In this document: positions 1-7,021 of the stretch, one piece after another
Layout of the letters: each line of letters opens with the position of its first letter
How positions within the stretch are numbered: the stretch's first letter is position 1
Assembly: GCA_905204385.1 (NCBI GenBank)
Contig: CAJKZL010000146.1
Span: forward strand, 1 to 7,220
Direction: 5' to 3'
From: an uncultured Odoribacter sp.
Lineage (GTDB): Bacteria > Bacteroidota > Bacteroidia > Bacteroidales > Marinifilaceae
DNA length: 7,220 nt
The notes under the pieces: model-generated
Told to the model about the DNA's origin: nothing
Databases searched by the model: none
Seen by the model: the letters and a program-made list of their open reading frames with translations, nothing else
Position numbers and translations under genes: made by a program

Positions 1-1
1 G

Positions 2-778
2 ATTTGGATTTTCGGTTTTGCTGAAAATTCCAATTTCATTGTTTCAGGCCATGTCGTGGCCGGAGTCGGTTTGATCACAGCTTGCGTTTCTACAGCAGCA
101 ACTTCTTCTACAAAATTTTATTTAATACCGGCCAATTCGGCTAATGCGGCGAATGAAGTCAATAAAGAAGGTTTTTCTGCAATGACACAGAATGTACTGA
201 TCGGTTTGACTTTATTGTTTTCCTTGACCGCCTGGGTTTGGGCGATCGTGTTGTTATCCCGGATCGGTGAAGGGGCTTATTTTTTGGTAGCCGGTACTGT
301 GATGGGAGGATTGGCTTGTATTTGTACCAGCCTGATTGCTTTGGTGGCCAGTATCGCCAAACAGATCCGGAATACTTATGGAGAAAGTGACCGTAAAAAT
401 TGGCCGAAATTGGTTTTGGTGATGGGAACGGTGGCTTTTATCTGGGGATTGGTCGTTATTCTTGCTATGGCCGGGAATGTGGCCAATACCACCGGTTTCA
501 TCATGATGGGCTTGGGATTGGTTTGTTTCAGCATTTCCAGCAAAGTGATATTGCTGGCTAAAGTGTGGAAACAATCCTTTGCTTTGGCCAATCGTATTCC
601 TCTGATTCCGGTGCTTACCGCTTTATTATGTTTGTTTTTGGGCGCCTTTTTGTTCGAAGAAGGTTTGTACGACAATGCTTTTTTCGTTCCGGCCCGCGTA
701 TTGGTCGGCCTGGGAGCTATTTGTTTCTGCCTTTTTTCCATTGTAAGTATTTTGGAGAGCGGCACTTCGAAGAAATGA
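2..778 (+). CDS. yhiM: YhiM-family (DUF2776) inner-membrane protein, 3' part of the gene
   Basis: The frame is open from base 2, so the gene starts before the window and the GTG at 56 is only an internal codon. About 258 codons are visible, ending in TGA. The product matches what I know of E. coli YhiM (about 350 residues): a GHV..GVG.I.ACVST.A.SS stretch near the left edge, and a C-terminal block with NRIP.IPV, R.LVGLGA.CF and FSIVSILE.G..KK. About 90 N-terminal residues are therefore probably missing. Roughly seven hydrophobic membrane-spanning segments can be counted in the visible part, joined by short loops, so it is a polytopic cytoplasmic-membrane protein. In E. coli the protein is linked to acid resistance; its biochemical activity is not established, and a role here is inference. 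The strong terminator at 871-914 probably closes its transcript. Confidence 0.85.
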   Translation: MWIFGFAENSNFIVSGHVVAGVGLITACVSTAATSSTKFYLIPANSANAANEVNKEGFSAMTQNVLIGLTLLFSLTAWVWAIVLLSRIGEGAYFLVAGTVMGGLACICTSLIALVASIAKQIRNTYGESDRKNWPKLVLVMGTVAFIWGLVVILAMAGNVANTTGFIMMGLGLVCFSISSKVILLAKVWKQSFALANRIPLIPVLTALLCLFLGAFLFEEGLYDNAFFVPARVLVGLGAICFCLFSIVSILESGTSKK

Positions 779-836: not shown

Positions 837-870
837 AGGATAATCAATTCAAGGAACAACTCTGATAAGA

Positions 871-914
871 AATAGTCAGATTCTTTGATCGAGCAAAGAG
901 TCTGGCTATTTTTT
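871..914 (+). terminator. Strong rho-independent terminator
   Basis: A 17-bp stem pairs 871-887 with 894-910. Two of the pairs are G-U; the rest are Watson-Crick. The loop is the six bases ATCGAG, and the right arm runs directly into a T-rich tail (about 908-914). It is oriented to stop plus-strand transcription, most likely from the yhiM-type gene or from the TATCTTTG box at 812. On the minus strand the hairpin is followed by a weaker T-rich stretch (TATTTCTTAT), so it may also help end the AlbA_2 gene transcript. Confidence 0.85.
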
Positions 915-972
915 AGTTATAATCCGATTTTATAGTTATAAATAGTCATAATTAGTCATATTTCAGTCGTAA
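914..972. repeat. Short phased repeats, TAGTYATAA type
   Basis: Five related 9-mers lie between the terminator and the stop codon of the AlbA_2 gene: TAGTTATAA at 914 and at 933, TAGTCATAA at 943, TAGTCATAT at 953 and CAGTCGTAA at 964. The last four start 10, 10 and 11 bp apart, about one helical turn. The units are too short and degenerate for a CRISPR array. They could be protein-binding iterons or simple AT-rich microsatellite decay. Confidence 0.5.
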
Positions 973-979
973 TTCTGAT

Positions 980-2656
980 TTATGACTTGAGATGCCATGT
1001 TCTGCCTTCGGGAACAATCATATCATTTGCTTTCATTTCTGAAAGTATATTACCCACCATACGTTCTTGCTGTTCTTGAGTCTTATTCTGAGGTAGAACT
1101 TCTTTTAAGTAATCAAATATAGCATCACGGTTGGCCCCAATAGAACCTGCATACTGTAGAAATTGCAAAATCATATGCTGAATTTTAGCCTTATCCAATC
1201 CTTTATTGCGGGTATATTCCGACAATTGGCTAGTCTTCTTAGCCACATCGAGCGAAATGCGATATTCTGAAGTATCTCCTTCTAAAAGTCCTCTACCTAA
1301 TAGAGTTAAGACATTCTCTTCCGATATACGATGTCCTTTCTGTACAGCATCCAATAAGATACAATCCTCTAATGTCAAAGAATTATTCTCTTTGAGCAGT
1401 TTTGTGTATTTCTCATTAATGGAATTGCCATATATCTTTACCCCAACCTCTTTATTCAATATATCAATTTCATAATCGGGCATAGGGAAATGGCGACGCC
1501 ATTGCTCATCGAACATCTTCTTGATACCACGACCGACGGTGTCGATCATATTGAAATTTACCATAGCTCTACAAAGACATTCATTTCTAAAATGTCGTTG
1601 CGGTCCTTTGGTTGCTAACGCTTTCTGTAATGTACCGGGTATAAAACTACCACCGTTCTCGTAATAGAGATAGCCGGGATTTTCCACGAAATTTATACGT
1701 TGTTGTAATGTGTAATCTTGATGTGCGATAGCATTATGAAGAGCCTCACGAATAGTATAGTCATCATATTGCTTCATCGTATCTGGGAACAATGTACCAC
1801 CGGGCAATTCTCTCATGGTCAGATTGCGGATTTTTCCTAGAATCTGGTCAACGGTAAGAATGAACGGAACTGTAAAATGTTCGTAATCTACAATTTCTTG
1901 ATGTTCGTTCCGCAACGTCCATGTCACTTCTACCACAGCAGGATGAAGTTTGAATATAGAAACAGGCTTGCCCAAGAGAATGATGGCAGCTCGTGTCAGT
2001 TTACCATCCCTCATAATACCGCTATTGCATAGCAACTCTTCCACAGTCCAGGCATCAATTTCTTCCGATAGAATTTTTGAAGCATGAACTTTCTTGAACA
2101 TCACGCGAGCTTTGGCTATGGCTAATTCGTCCAAATCTGTCAATGTAGCATCAGGTACAAGCTCAGCAGACCAGTCTTTTGCTTCAAACAGGGGTTCCTC
2201 AAGAATAGTAGACAAGCGTTCTTGTGTCATTTCAACCAATGAATCCTCCACTCGTTGCCATGCTTTCTTGTGAGCGTATACAGGACGGCGTGGCAAGTGC
2301 TTTGGAATATGAATTATCCATACAGTCTGTCGAGTATCTTCTGTAGTATACTCGCTTATACTAAGTTGTTCTGAAGATAAATTGGTACAATGTTCTAGTA
2401 ATTTCCATACAGCAGAGAGAGCATTCAGGTTAAACTTAGTAAGATCGGTCCCCACTATTTCGAGTGTCTTATCCTGTACACCTATAACAAGATGACCACC
2501 CTCCATATTGGCTATGGCAGAAACATAGGAAATGACATCATTTTTTTCATTTCCGGAAAAGGAGTTCTTCAGATTTTTCATTTCTTTCCATTCACAATAA
2601 GCATTCTCTTGAGGAAATTCACGAAGCAGATATTGTTGAAGTTCTTTGGATGTCAT
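980..2656 (-). CDS. AlbA_2 (Schlafen-like) / HATPase_c_4 protein
   Basis: This is a complete 558-residue gene with ATG at 2654-2656 and TAA at 980-982. The N-terminal part (about 18-145) is an AlbA_2 putative nucleic-acid-binding domain of the Schlafen-like fold, with CEWKE near residue 21 and a SAIANMEGGHLVIGV core at about 46-60. The middle (about 300-385) is a HATPase_c_4-type ATP-binding region: the N-box is REALHNAIAHQDY (Glu304, Asn308), and VGRGIKKM follows at about 374-381. This stretch is shorter than in many relatives, as NPGYLYYENGG replaces the usual long strand pair, so ATPase activity is uncertain. The last 70 residues look like a winged-helix domain. Such proteins are common accessory genes annotated as ATP-binding or transcriptional regulators; some Schlafen-type proteins act in phage defence, but nothing here proves that. 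The gene is visibly AT-richer than rarA and kdsA, opposite in strand, has no partner gene, and sits between direct repeats, which suggests acquisition by transfer. No Shine-Dalgarno sequence precedes the start. Confidence 0.85.
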   Translation of the reverse strand: MTSKELQQYLLREFPQENAYCEWKEMKNLKNSFSGNEKNDVISYVSAIANMEGGHLVIGVQDKTLEIVGTDLTKFNLNALSAVWKLLEHCTNLSSEQLSISEYTTEDTRQTVWIIHIPKHLPRRPVYAHKKAWQRVEDSLVEMTQERLSTILEEPLFEAKDWSAELVPDATLTDLDELAIAKARVMFKKVHASKILSEEIDAWTVEELLCNSGIMRDGKLTRAAIILLGKPVSIFKLHPAVVEVTWTLRNEHQEIVDYEHFTVPFILTVDQILGKIRNLTMRELPGGTLFPDTMKQYDDYTIREALHNAIAHQDYTLQQRINFVENPGYLYYENGGSFIPGTLQKALATKGPQRHFRNECLCRAMVNFNMIDTVGRGIKKMFDEQWRRHFPMPDYEIDILNKEVGVKIYGNSINEKYTKLLKENNSLTLEDCILLDAVQKGHRISEENVLTLLGRGLLEGDTSEYRISLDVAKKTSQLSEYTRNKGLDKAKIQHMILQFLQYAGSIGANRDAIFDYLKEVLPQNKTQEQQERMVGNILSEMKANDMIVPEGRTWHLKS

Positions 2657-2723
2657 AGCTCTTACTTTAAGTAATTTTTATACTTGTTTCTTAAACGTTG
2701 TCCTATCTTAGCTATATATAAAC

Positions 2724-2840
2724 CTAATTATCGATAGCGTTGGGCAACATGTGAGAAACTTTTCCCCTTCGTTTATGCAAAACAGTGCAGAGTTGTTCGC
2801 AAAGAGTTTCGCGACACCATGGCATTGCTTTTTCAGTCAC
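2724..2840 (-). CDS. Possible small ORF or gene remnant, unrecognised
   Basis: On the minus strand the frame is open from just after a TAG at 2910-2912 down to a TAG at 2724-2726. The marked start is a GTG at 2838-2840, giving 38 residues; an ATG at 2823-2825 would give 33. The peptide contains EKAMPWCRETLCEQL followed by a basic stretch HKRRGK and ends PNAIDN. The open stretch continues 23 codons upstream of the GTG without an ATG, so this may be a remnant of a longer gene. I do not recognise a family. Its balanced composition stands out from the AT-rich surroundings, and it lies 67 bp before the AlbA_2 start on the same strand. Chance is quite possible. Confidence 0.2.
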   Translation of the reverse strand: MTEKAMPWCRETLCEQLCTVLHKRRGKVSHMLPNAIDN

Positions 2841-3030
2841 CTCTAATTCATGTTGAAAAACCAATGAACACGGATTATTTTTATAATATTTGATATAGGT
2901 CTTTACTGTCTATATTTATGGTAAATATTAGCATTTCCGACAGCAGTATATTTTCAAACAATATGATTTGCTATTTATATAAAATATTTTTTTATTTGCT
3001 TAAAGGTTTGTTTCAATTAGTATTTGATTG

Positions 3031-3038
3031 CAAAATTA
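3031..3038 (-). promoter_or_regulatory. Candidate minus-strand -7 box (TAATTTTG)
   Basis: Read on the minus strand, TAATTTTG followed by CAATC fits TAnnTTTG and resembles the TATCTTTGCAAC of the direct repeats. Transcription would start near 3024 and run leftward through the small open stretch at 2724-2840 into the AlbA_2 gene, giving a leader of about 370 nt. No -33 TTTG is seen at the usual spacing, so confidence is low. Confidence 0.25.
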
Positions 3039-3152
3039 CTCGTTTTTGCCATCTTAAAGAATGATTCTTCAAAATTCTTTTGCTTTGCTATAATATCTGC
3101 TGACTTCGGAGGGTGATTTTTCTTTATTCTGCCTTTCCTTTCATTTCTGTGT

Positions 3153-3179
3153 TGTATCTTTGCAACAGATAGGCTGCAT
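3153..3179 (+). repeat. 27-bp direct repeat, right copy
   Basis: Identical to 810-836 and in the same orientation, including the TATCTTTG box (3155-3162) and the TATCT/AGATA dyad (3155-3159 and 3167-3171) around a 7-bp spacer. It lies 147 bp before the rarA start. Recombination between the two copies would remove 2343 bp containing the whole AlbA_2 gene and join the yhiM-type gene directly to the rarA promoter region with one repeat left behind. Confidence 0.85.
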
Positions 3180-3260: not shown

Positions 3261-3308
3261 ATGGCAAATTATTTGGACATTGAAATCGGCTTACATGATC
3301 TTTATTAA
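3261..3308 (+). CDS. Possible 15-codon leader ORF before rarA
   Basis: ATG at 3261 opens a 15-residue frame, [15 protein letters not shown], ending in TAA 17 bp before the rarA ATG and just downstream of the candidate promoter. The frame is open further upstream (KIDDAEE precedes the Met), so it could also be the end of an older gene fragment. No attenuator hairpin or biased residue run is evident, and a frame this short could be chance. Confidence 0.2.
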
Positions 3309-3325
3309 AAGATACGGATTTATTT

Positions 3326-4597
3326 ATGGAGAATCAACCGTTAGCAGAGAGATTGAGACCTAAGACGCTGGACGATTACATCGGCCAGCAACATTTGGTG
3401 GGGAAAGGAAAAGTGCTTCGTAAAATGATCGAATCGGGAGTCGTTTCGTCTTTTATCTTATGGGGACCTCCCGGAGTGGGCTAGTCTACCCTGGCGATGA
3501 TCATTGCCGAGCAGGTGAAACGCCCTTTTTATGTACTGAGTGCAGTCAGCTCAGGGGTGAAAGATGTCCGGGAAGTGATTCAGAAAGCGGAAAGCCAGCG
3601 TTTTTTCAATACCCCGAATCCCATTCTTTTTATCGATGAGATTCACCGTTTTTCCAAGGCTCAGCAGGATTCCTTGCTGGCTGCCGTGGAAAAGGGTACG
3701 GTGACTCTGATCGGGGCAACTACGGAAAATCCCTCTTTCGAGGTGATCTCTCCCTTGCTTTCCCGTTGCCAGGTGTATGTCCTGAAATCGCAGGAAAAAG
3801 CCGATCTCGAAAGCCTTATCGACAGGGCGGTGGCGAAGGATTTCTACCTTAAGGAAAAGAATATTGTCGTCCGCGAAAAGGAAGCTTTGATATCTTTCAG
3901 TGGTGGGGATGCCCGGAAGCTGTTGAATATTATTGAATTGGTGGTCAATGCCCAGCCCGGCCCGGAGATCGTCATCGACAATGAAACCGTCCGCAAGGAG
4001 TTGCATGAAAATCCGCTGATGTATGACAAGGACGGTGAACAGCACTACGACATCATTTCGGCCATGATCAAGTCCATCCGAGGGAGTGATCCCAATGCCG
4101 CTTTGTATTATATGGCCAGGATGCTGGAAGGGGGGGAGGACCCTAAATTTATTGCCCGCCGCTTACTGATTTCCGCCTCCGAGGATGTCGGGCTGGCCAA
4201 TCCGAATGCGATGCTATTGGCCAATGCCTGCTTCGATATTATCCATAAAATCGGAATGCCCGAAGCGAGGATTCCCCTTTCGGAATGTGTGATTTACCTG
4301 GCCACCTCGCCGAAGAGTAATTCGGCTTATCTGGCCATCGACGGGGCTATGGCTACGGTCCGGCAAACGGGGAATCTGCCGGTGCCCTTGTATCTCCGGA
4401 ATGCTCCGACCAAGCTGATGAAGGAACTCAATTATGGAAAGGATTATAAATATGCACACGATTTTCCGGGAAATTTTGTGGAAATGGAATTTATGCCCGA
4501 AGAGTTGAAAAATAAAGTGTTCTATAAGCCCCAACAGAATGCTTCGGAGCTGAAAATCCTGGAAAGGCTGAAGGCTTGGTGGAAGAGGAGGTATTAG
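3326..4597 (+). pseudogene. rarA: RarA/MgsA replication-associated recombination ATPase, interrupted by TAG at the Walker A lysine
   Basis: ATG at 3326-3328 opens a 424-codon frame, the expected length for Bacteroidota RarA (E. coli has 447 residues). RarA is a clamp-loader-like AAA+ DNA-dependent ATPase acting at stalled forks, related to Mgs1/WRNIP1. The start region ([20 protein letters not shown]) and Walker A GPPGVG are typical, but codon 53 (3482-3484), the invariant P-loop lysine, is TAG. It is followed in frame by STLAMI, so one base change from AAG explains it. Downstream is complete: Walker B FIDEIHRF (Asp104, Glu105), the GATTENPSFE sensor region, LLSRCQVY, and the tetramerisation/C-terminal domain with SEDVGLANP. 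The gene ends in TAG at 4595-4597. Reinitiation at the ATG of 3497 could yield 366 residues, but without the P-loop and hence no ATPase. It is a recent pseudogene, a sequencing error, or less likely a recoded stop. Confidence 0.9.
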
Positions 4598-4661
4598 ATG
4601 ATAGATGATAGTTTAAAGTTTAGAGTTTATAGTTTAAAGATTAAAGATTAAAGATTAAAGA
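4595..4661 (+). repeat. Low-complexity tandem repeats after rarA
   Basis: TAGATGA occurs twice in tandem (4595-4608) starting at the rarA stop codon. AGTTTA-type units follow at about 4610-4635, and then AAAGATT three times exactly (4636-4656) with a partial fourth. Such short tandem units may change copy number by slippage. No terminator hairpin is visible between rarA and kdsA, so read-through into kdsA is plausible. Confidence 0.7.
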
Positions 4662-4725: not shown

Positions 4726-5538
4726 ATGATGAAGATATTGGATGTAAATTCGGACCGGGGAATGTTTTTTTTGCTGGCAGGTCCCTGTGTGATCGAGGGA
4801 GAAGAGATGGCTTTAAGGATTGCGGAGCATATTTCCGGGATCGCCGACAAGTTGGGTATTCCCTATGTATTTAAGGGATCGTTCAAAAAGGCCAACCGTT
4901 CGCGCCTGGATTCTTTTACCGGCATCGGGGATGAGAAAGCCTTGAAGGTATTGGCCAAAGTAAGGAAGGATTTTCAGATTCCCGTCGTGACCGATATTCA
5001 TAGTCCGGAAGATGCCGTTATGGCGGCCGAGTATGTGGATGTGTTGCAGATTCCTGCATTTTTGTGCCGGCAGACGGACTTGCTGATAGCGGCTGCCCGC
5101 ACCGGACGTATGGTGAATATCAAGAAGGGACAGTTTTTATCTCCCGAAGCCATGCGGTTTGCGGTGGATAAAATCCGGGAGTCGGGGAATAAGAATGTGA
5201 TGGTGACCGAGCGTGGAACGACTTTCGGCTATCAGGATTTGATTGTCGATTACCGGGGGATTCCGATCATGCAGGAAGCCTGTCGCTGTCCGGTGGTCGT
5301 AGACGCTACTCATTCGCTGCAACAACCCAATCAGAGTTGTGGCGTCACCGGCGGTCAGCCCCGTTTGATCGAGACTATCGCCAAAGCTGCCATTGCCGTG
5401 GGGGCAGACGGTTTGTTTATCGAAACCCACCCTGAACCGGCGGTCGCTAAGTCCGACGGCGCCAATATGCTGAGACTCGATTTGCTGGAGGGATTATTGG
5501 AGAAATTGGTGCGCCTGCGGAAAGCGGTCGGCGAATAA
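4726..5538 (+). CDS. kdsA: 3-deoxy-8-phosphooctulonate synthase (KDO-8-P synthase), metal-dependent type
   Basis: Complete 270-residue gene with ATG at 4726 (a second ATG follows immediately at 4729) and TAA at 5536-5538. The enzyme condenses phosphoenolpyruvate with D-arabinose-5-phosphate in the cytoplasm to give KDO-8-phosphate, the precursor of the KDO sugar in the lipopolysaccharide inner core. Family marks are LAGPCVIE at 17-24, FKGSFKKANRSR at 49-60, TDIHSPE at 89-95, QIPAFLCRQTDLL at 108-120, NIKKGQFLSP at 131-140 and DATHSLQQPN at 193-202. Cys21, His196, Glu233 and Asp244 correspond in spacing to the metal ligands of Aquifex KdsA, and the Cys in AGPC (Asn in the E. coli enzyme) marks the metal-dependent class. 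The length is slightly below the 284 residues of E. coli. It lies 128 bp after rarA and 37 bp before the PD40 gene, so co-transcription is likely. There is no Shine-Dalgarno sequence, only an A-rich leader. Confidence 0.97.
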   Translation: MMKILDVNSDRGMFFLLAGPCVIEGEEMALRIAEHISGIADKLGIPYVFKGSFKKANRSRLDSFTGIGDEKALKVLAKVRKDFQIPVVTDIHSPEDAVMAAEYVDVLQIPAFLCRQTDLLIAAARTGRMVNIKKGQFLSPEAMRFAVDKIRESGNKNVMVTERGTTFGYQDLIVDYRGIPIMQEACRCPVVVDATHSLQQPNQSCGVTGGQPRLIETIAKAAIAVGADGLFIETHPEPAVAKSDGANMLRLDLLEGLLEKLVRLRKAVGE

Positions 5539-5575: not shown

Positions 5576-7021
5576 ATGAGAAAGTTCCTTTGGTGTCTTT
5601 CTCTTTTATGGTGTGTGTATGGATGCGGCAAGGATTGGCAAGAGGCGGTGGAATGTGATGAATATCCCCGGATTTATCCGGATTATCAGGATGTGACGAT
5701 ACCGGTGAATATGGCACCCCTGAATTTCGGGGTCCGGGAGGCGGGGAAAATGGTGGTTGAATTTCGTCATCGGGGAGAAGTGTTGCTGACCTGCCGGGGA
5801 AAAGGCAAAATCGATATTCCTTTGAAGAAATGGCATGCGCTGTTAAAAGAGAACGGTGGACAAAAGTTAGAAGTGAAAGTTTATCTCGCTGCGGATGGGC
5901 AGTGGAAAGCCTATCGGCCGTTTGCCATCCGGGTGGCGGCGGATTCCATCGATCCTTTTCTGGCCTATCGGTTGATAGAGCCCGGCTATGAATTGGGAAA
6001 AAGATTGGGTTTGTATCAGCGGGACTTGTCTTCTTTTCAGGAGAAAGCATTCGTTTCCCCTTTGCTGAGCCCGGAGAGTTGTGTCAATTGTCATGCTTTT
6101 TGCAACTATTCCCCCGACCGGATGATGTATCATGTCCGTTGGGAGCATTCCGGCACGGTCATCGCCGAACCGGGGAATATCCGCAAAGTGAATACCAAGA
6201 CGAAAGAGGTCATCAGCCCCGGAGCTTACCGCATGTGGCATCCTTCGGGTAAATACATCGCTTTTTCGAATAACCGCACGCATCAGGCTTTCCATGCCTT
6301 TGCCGAGAAAAAAATCGAGGTGTACGATTTAGCTTCCGGCCTGATGATTTATGATGTAGCGAAAAATAAGGTGCTTACAGATAAACGCTTTACGGCGGAC
6401 AGTACGTGGCAAACCTTCCCCGCCTGGTCGGCTGATGGGAAGTATCTTTATTTCTGTGAGGCTCGGCCGGTGAACTTGCCTGAGGACTATAAGGAATTGA
6501 AATACCAGCTCTACCGCGTGGCTTTCGATGAGAACAGCGGGTTGTTGGGCGATTCTGTCGAAAGGATCGGCTTGGGATGCGATAGCTTGAAAAGCATAGC
6601 CTTTCCGGTGGTGTCGCCCGATGGTCGGTATCTATTGTATACCGTGGCGGAAAGCGGTACTTTACCGATTTGGCACAAAGATGCCGATCTGGGGTTGATC
6701 GATTAGCTATCGGGTTTGCCGGTGGATTTATCCGGGGTAAACAGCGACGATGCCGATAGCTATCATGCCTGGGCCTCTTCGGGGCGCTGGTTGGCGTTCA
6801 GCAGCCGGCGCGACGACCACTTGTATACCCGCATCTACCTGGTGTATTTCGATAAAGACGGTAAGGCGCATAAGCCGTTTGTACTGCCTCAAAAAGACCC
6901 GGATTTTTATACGCTGTTCCTGAAATCCTATAATATTCCGGAATTTATCAAGGGACCGGTACCGTTTTCTCCCCGACAGTTGGAAGCCGTTATGGCGGGA
7001 GAAACTAAAAATGCCGTATAG
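5576..7021 (+). pseudogene. PD40/TolB-like beta-propeller lipoprotein with CxxCH motif, interrupted by an in-frame TAG
   Basis: The ATG at 5576 starts a 482-codon frame ending in TAG at 7019-7021, with one internal TAG at 6704-6706 (codon 377). The N-terminus has a lipoprotein signal, a hydrophobic stretch then VYGC with Cys17 as the likely lipidated residue, placing the protein on a cell-envelope membrane. A CVNCH motif at 169-173 (another Cys at 176) fits covalent c-type haem attachment. PD40-like blades follow: YRMWHPSGKYIAFS (about 218), FPAWSADGKYLYF (about 281), FPVVSPDGRYLLYT (about 343) and, after the TAG, YHAWASSGRWLAFSSRRDD. Before the TAG the protein reads DADLGLID and afterwards LSGLPVDL, with no shift or missing residue, so one base change (for example TTG to TAG) explains it. 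Without read-through the last blade and C-terminus are lost. I believe relatives occur in gut Bacteroidales beside DUF6057 genes; substrate and function are unknown to me. Confidence 0.8.

Follow-up and report, generated by a model that had tools for sequence, protein, structure and literature searches.

The question raised by this locus is whether the TAG codon that stands in rarA in place of the Walker A lysine codon belongs to the genome of a living cell or arose when the sequence was determined and assembled. The window (the whole stretch of DNA that was analyzed, 7220 nucleotides) contains five genes: the 3′ part of a DUF2776 gene (2-778, forward strand); an AlbA_2/HATPase_c_4 gene identified by Pfam (980-2656, reverse strand); rarA, encoding replication-associated recombination protein A of the MgsA family (3326-4597, forward strand; NCBIfam, Pfam and PDB 3pvs matches); an intact kdsA, encoding 3-deoxy-8-phosphooctulonate synthase (4726-5538, forward strand; TIGR01362); and a PD40/TolB-like beta-propeller gene (5576-7021, forward strand; PF07676 and homologs). 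The rarA frame runs from an ATG at 3326 to its own terminator TAG at 4595-4597, and AT-rich tandem repeats of 7 and 21 bases are found at and after its end (4595-4661).

When the rarA product was searched with X at the position of the stop, Pfam matches to PF12002 (245 bits), PF16193 (82 bits) and AAA (PF00004, 62 bits) were obtained, and the domains follow one another in the order AAA+ core, AAA_assoc_2, MgsA_C. The DE box of Walker B is present (FIDEIH, residues 102-107). The product also aligns with 3pvs ("Replication-associated recombination protein A", residues 4-418), which we take to be the structure of E. coli RarA. The P-loop reads GPPGVG-stop-STL, the stop being an in-frame TAG at 3482-3484 (forward strand), codon 53 of 423. 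By alignment, codon 53 corresponds to residue 63 of 3pvs, and K63 is named in a published study (PMC8735627) as the Walker A lysine of the E. coli protein. This column is Lys in 120 of 120 homologs, the best of 8000 scored, which are 87-94% identical to the window's RarA and whose named members are Culturomica, Odoribacter and one labelled Oscillibacter. The initial annotation had proposed a comparison with rarA of close relatives; Lys was found at the site in all 26 genomic copies. The window's rarA therefore does not encode the Walker A lysine, as that annotation had noticed, and its description of both sides of the stop as full-length, conserved and in frame is borne out by a RarA/MgsA family match along the whole length.

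The codon touching the stop is also unusual. Codon 54 (TCT, 3485-3487, forward strand) encodes Ser, whereas Thr is found in 119 of the 120 homologs; the exception, P0058, also has Ser, and its own P-loop region is aberrant. Other rare residues of the window's RarA are V64, H227 and V288. Past the stop, an open frame of 366 amino acids starts from an internal ATG (3497-4597, forward strand) and keeps Walker B and the C-terminal domains, without Walker A. The fragment itself is not among the best 120 matches to a query made from it, and the predicted RarA of one relative (P0243, 87%) begins at the same internal Met.

A stop falling on the lysine had been regarded as a striking coincidence. We do not share this view: any early nonsense codon would be equally null, and 136 other rarA codons sit one base from a stop, so that a stop at exactly codon 53 has a probability of roughly 1 in 137 if the codon is named beforehand, while it was named only afterwards. 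Since 330 of 424 RarA positions are in columns at least 95% conserved among the 120 homologs, a stop would be expected to hit a conserved residue.

The stop in rarA is not the only one. The PD40/TolB-like gene, two genes downstream, carries an in-frame TAG at 6704-6706 (forward strand; codon 377), which the initial annotation did not include, at a position occupied by Leu in 107 of 120 relatives. The rarA and PD40 frames thus have one internal TAG each, no internal TAA or TGA and no frameshifts. Taken together, the second TAG, the change at codon 54 and the signs of a composite contig described below, all of which had been missed, weaken the interpretation of the locus as the site of a single striking mutation.

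The contig looks composite when its sequence is compared with that of the nearest genome, G440 (one contig of 4.39 Mb). Positions 1-534 (forward strand), inside the DUF2776 gene, differ from G440 by one mismatch (99.8% identity), while the next 245 bases, up to position 779, contain 49 mismatches (ca. 80% identity). Since closeness to G440 changes sharply at 534/535, within a gene, either misassembly or recent recombination must be considered. Further along, DNA identity to G440 is 82% in rarA and 78% in kdsA, and 82% is also the best rarA identity among 393 genomes drawn from the order plus 56 family genomes. A scan of genome contigs retrieved at least 80 rarA loci at 63-72% identity. No phage or plasmid match to the window was found; the rarA loci seen in viral contigs, five in number, are distant (58% identity or less).

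The gap between DUF2776 and rarA is a few dozen bases in G440 and G209 and ca. 2.5 kb longer in the window. Most of the added interval, a 2.3-kb piece beside rarA, lies between two perfect direct copies of a 27-bp repeat (810-836 and 3153-3179, both forward strand). This extra segment (837-3152), which carries the AlbA_2/HATPase_c_4 gene, is missing from the matching interval of G440 and G209. The second copy of the repeat starts an 84-base element, with the motif TATCTTTG near each end, that is present at three further places in two of the 56 family genomes (G440 and G447). The first copy overlaps a palindromic promoter-like site in its left half. In the window the extra segment separates the two halves of this site (ca. 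806-819 and 3307-3320), which remain together upstream of rarA in 4 of 20 family loci (G440, G209, G410 and G409), and imperfectly in two more. Either the extra segment was inserted and parted the rarA promoter, or the repeat is the site of a second misjoin. The promoter-like palindrome, TATCTTTG...AAAGATA, was seen upstream of rarA in L122, L121, L096 and L100, and between relatives its two arms show paired changes (CCGTATC/GATACGG vs. CCTTATC/GATAAGG). In G440, a DNA match to the AlbA_2/HATPase gene (L125 1146-2003) has an open frame over the C-terminal half only, with 83.8% identity over residues 268-557, and is possibly a broken copy.

Apparent joins close to the P-loop are also found in public RarA records of related bacteria, the database sources of which are ena and lgn. 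From the P-loop on, P0246, P0247 and P0248 share 98.9% of the body with P0245, and their N-termini diverge. Two of these N-terminal parts are RarA-like and come from other lineages, and one consists of just a few residues and is unlike RarA; the N-terminus of P0247 reads, as we take it, like a MoxR-type P-loop. The joins are located at or just before the P-loop. The N-terminal part of P0244 is likewise divergent, and P0003 is a RarA record fused to a KdsA-like part. We infer that P0246-P0248 and P0244 are metagenome chimeras, and the position of the joins in P0246-P0248 makes a local fault at the P-loop of the window credible.

The dN between the rarA of the window and that of G440 is 0.036, compared with 0.034 between G440 and G437; the corresponding values for kdsA are 0.091 and 0.088, with synonymous sites near saturation. 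Because dN is not raised, RarA was under normal, strong selection until recently, which supports the earlier view that a loss, if there was one, is very recent. P0043 (source ena), the nearest protein, is identical to the window's RarA at 371 of the first 380 residues. It has Lys53 and Thr54, and intact RarA copies therefore exist in near kin, although the last part of this record looks foreign and the record itself is chimera-like.

Over the first 379 residues the window and P0043 differ at eight positions, six of which are in columns at least 95% conserved. The share of differences in such columns averages 28% in a control set of 392 pairs that differ at 5-12 positions; it reaches 70% in 24 of these pairs, and 32 pairs have at least six differences there. 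The pattern is unusual, not unique. At 238 columns near-invariant among 26 relatives, the rarA of the window has four private changes, the stop included, compared with 0-3 (mean 0.65) in 20 family members and 4-15 in six more distant ones. In kdsA, the window has one private change in 158 conserved columns (18 relatives, 0-6). In these counts, shorter copies were swapped for longer ones at three loci, and 8 of 26 taxa gave no kdsA of enough length. In comparison with the 120 protein homologs, five rare residues are seen in the window's RarA (mean of the others 2.5; 18 of 120 have as many) and one in the PD40 protein (91 columns; mean of 120 others 1.6), which is no excess. Relaxed selection on rarA is thus not visible in dN to G440, while private changes at near-invariant columns are raised. 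The private changes look like unselected change in rarA, be it sequence errors or decay after loss, and their excess is small. Old decay of rarA was rejected on account of the low dN and of the frames, which are otherwise open.

Judging from these comparisons, we consider the chances even that the TAG is a sequence or assembly fault and does not represent the true rarA content of the living cell, and we favor this explanation over a genuine recent null allele. The window would be a metagenome contig, probably thinly covered, in which the sharp switch from near-identity with one genome (1-534) to ca. 80%, and the segment bounded by the exact 27-bp repeat between DUF2776 and rarA, may be products of assembly. 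The P-loop, being conserved between species, would be a spot where assemblies go wrong; the several changes at near-invariant positions of rarA, two of them adjacent at the P-loop, may have the same origin. The near-conspecific P0043 keeps the lysine, and reads would be expected to carry a Lys codon at the TAG of rarA and a Leu codon at that of the PD40 gene. The occurrence of two in-frame TAGs in two of five genes, without frameshifts, the clustering of six of eight differences from P0043 at conserved columns and the chimera-like records joined at the P-loop all argue for a fault.

Several observations do not fit this explanation easily. The kdsA and PD40 genes, located on the same contig, show no excess of private changes. 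Two stops created by random substitution would require ca. 45 changes in 5970 coding bases (0.75%). At this rate, ca. four mismatches are predicted in positions 1-534, a stretch that may have another origin, and one is seen (P = 0.09), and so either a lower rate and some luck, or local faults, are needed. No source for a misassembled P-loop was identified: the 20-mer around the TAG is present in none of 56 family genomes (with up to three mismatches), and the 23-mer has no exact match in viral contigs. Finally, the switch at 535 could be real recombination, and P0043, the intact copy used for comparison, is itself a chimera-like record.

The main alternative, to which we assign somewhat less than even chances, is that the strain carries a genuine and very recent rarA null allele, with a nonsense mutation that ends RarA after 52 residues. 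The change in codon 54 would perhaps be part of the same event, and rarA would be dispensable, starting to collect missense changes and possibly already mis-expressed through the segment inserted in its promoter region. The contrast between the four private changes in rarA and the normal kdsA, as well as the parting of the promoter-like site that four family loci keep together, are in agreement with such a history. PMC8735627 reports that in E. coli a rarA deletion alone causes no significant defect under the DNA-damaging agents tested there, and that ATP hydrolysis is lost with the Walker A substitution K63R, which has the same effect as the deletion in a ruvB background. On these grounds a null allele of rarA would be plausible and nothing out of the ordinary. 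The PD40 gene would then have been lost in a second, independent event through its own TAG, and our guess is that this gene is dispensable too. However, this history calls for two independent null alleles among five genes, in a contig of 7.2 kb with other signs of composite origin. The lysine is retained by the near-conspecific P0043, dN reveals no long-standing relaxation, and the segment that splits the promoter may itself be a misjoin.

It is very improbable that the stops were made by copying of a nearby inverted repeat (a quasi-palindrome template switch), whether in the cell or during library making. At both sites the TAG pairs with a CTA just downstream, within one-bulge inverted repeats (GGG(C)TAG-T-CTACCC at 3478-3491 and CGA(T)TAG-CTATCG at 6700-6712), and a single copying event could alter codons 53 and 54. 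The sole rare residue of the PD40 protein (codon 363) is in a stronger inverted repeat, with a score that 6.5% of window positions reach. Yet the scores at the two stops do not exceed chance, being matched by 21 of the 78 TAGs simulated in rarA and by 32 of the 97 simulated in the PD40 gene, and rarA codons 64, 227 and 288 have no stronger repeats than usual (scores 2-4). A quasi-palindrome origin of both TAGs was rejected on the basis of the simulated stops.

The initial annotation listed a recent null mutation, a sequencing or assembly error and read-through as its options; the list was the right one, but read-through is disfavored by the second TAG at a Leu column. We give almost no credence to translation of the TAGs, by an amber-suppressor tRNA, stop-codon reassignment or programmed read-through, into full-length RarA and PD40 protein. 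Both frames are full length and conserved past the stop, with TAG as the only internal stop, and TAG-to-Gln reassignment is reported (PMC9523058, PMC10136315) in crAss-like phages, which infect Bacteroidetes. Gln would not restore the Walker A lysine, however, and one suppressor cannot serve both sites, as one column is Lys and the other Leu; there are only two sites. TAG is also the terminator of rarA and of the PD40 gene (two of five genes) and is thus not avoided in this role, and Lys is encoded at the site in the genomic copies of relatives. No tRNA genes were found in the window, and there is no anticodon CTA among 59 tRNAs found in the nearest genome, G440 (150 of 261 first-look candidates scored), which is a relative and not the strain itself. 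Amber recoding was rejected on account of the Lys and Leu columns, the TAG terminators and the lack of CTA among the G440 tRNAs found. Pyrrolysine in place of lysine was dropped because the second site is Leu. It is very unlikely that an uncultured Odoribacter/Culturomica-like bacterium tolerates amber codons in conserved chromosomal genes through a suppressor tRNA, its own or that of a resident phage, with RarA activity dependent on suppression.

If the TAG is real, the strain is a RarA null that would make a 52-residue stump and, at best, an ATPase-dead fragment of 366 residues, predicted to restart at 3497. It would add to the strains that lack RarA and be modestly useful for understanding how gut Bacteroidales manage in the absence of this protein. 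The locus serves mainly as a warning: when a stop is found at a catalytic residue in a short contig, composite assembly should be checked first. In several public RarA records of the group there seem to be wrong joins at the conserved P-loop or near it.

Compared with known members of the RarA/MgsA/WRNIP1 family of AAA+ ATPases, as represented by 3pvs, the window's RarA is similar over its whole length and has the Walker B, AAA_assoc_2 and MgsA_C domains; it differs in having TAG as the Walker A lysine codon, so that the standard code allows only the stump or the 366-amino-acid fragment. The gene order rarA-kdsA is also that of G440, G209 and other family genomes. Like TAG-reassigned crAss-like phages (genetic code 15), the window has in-frame TAGs in full-length genes, but it is a bacterial housekeeping locus, in which the residues replaced by the two TAGs are not the same and TAG serves as a terminator as well. 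With amber null alleles and pseudogenes of dispensable bacterial genes it shares a stop made by in-frame substitution, a frame that is otherwise intact and intact copies in relatives; the difference is that, given a second nearby stop and the composite contig, a real allele and an artefact are about equally likely. The likeness to chimeric metagenome contigs lies in the sharp identity switch within a gene, the joins at exact repeats and the chimera-like RarA records of related bacteria, although such a switch would look alike had recombination occurred in the cell.
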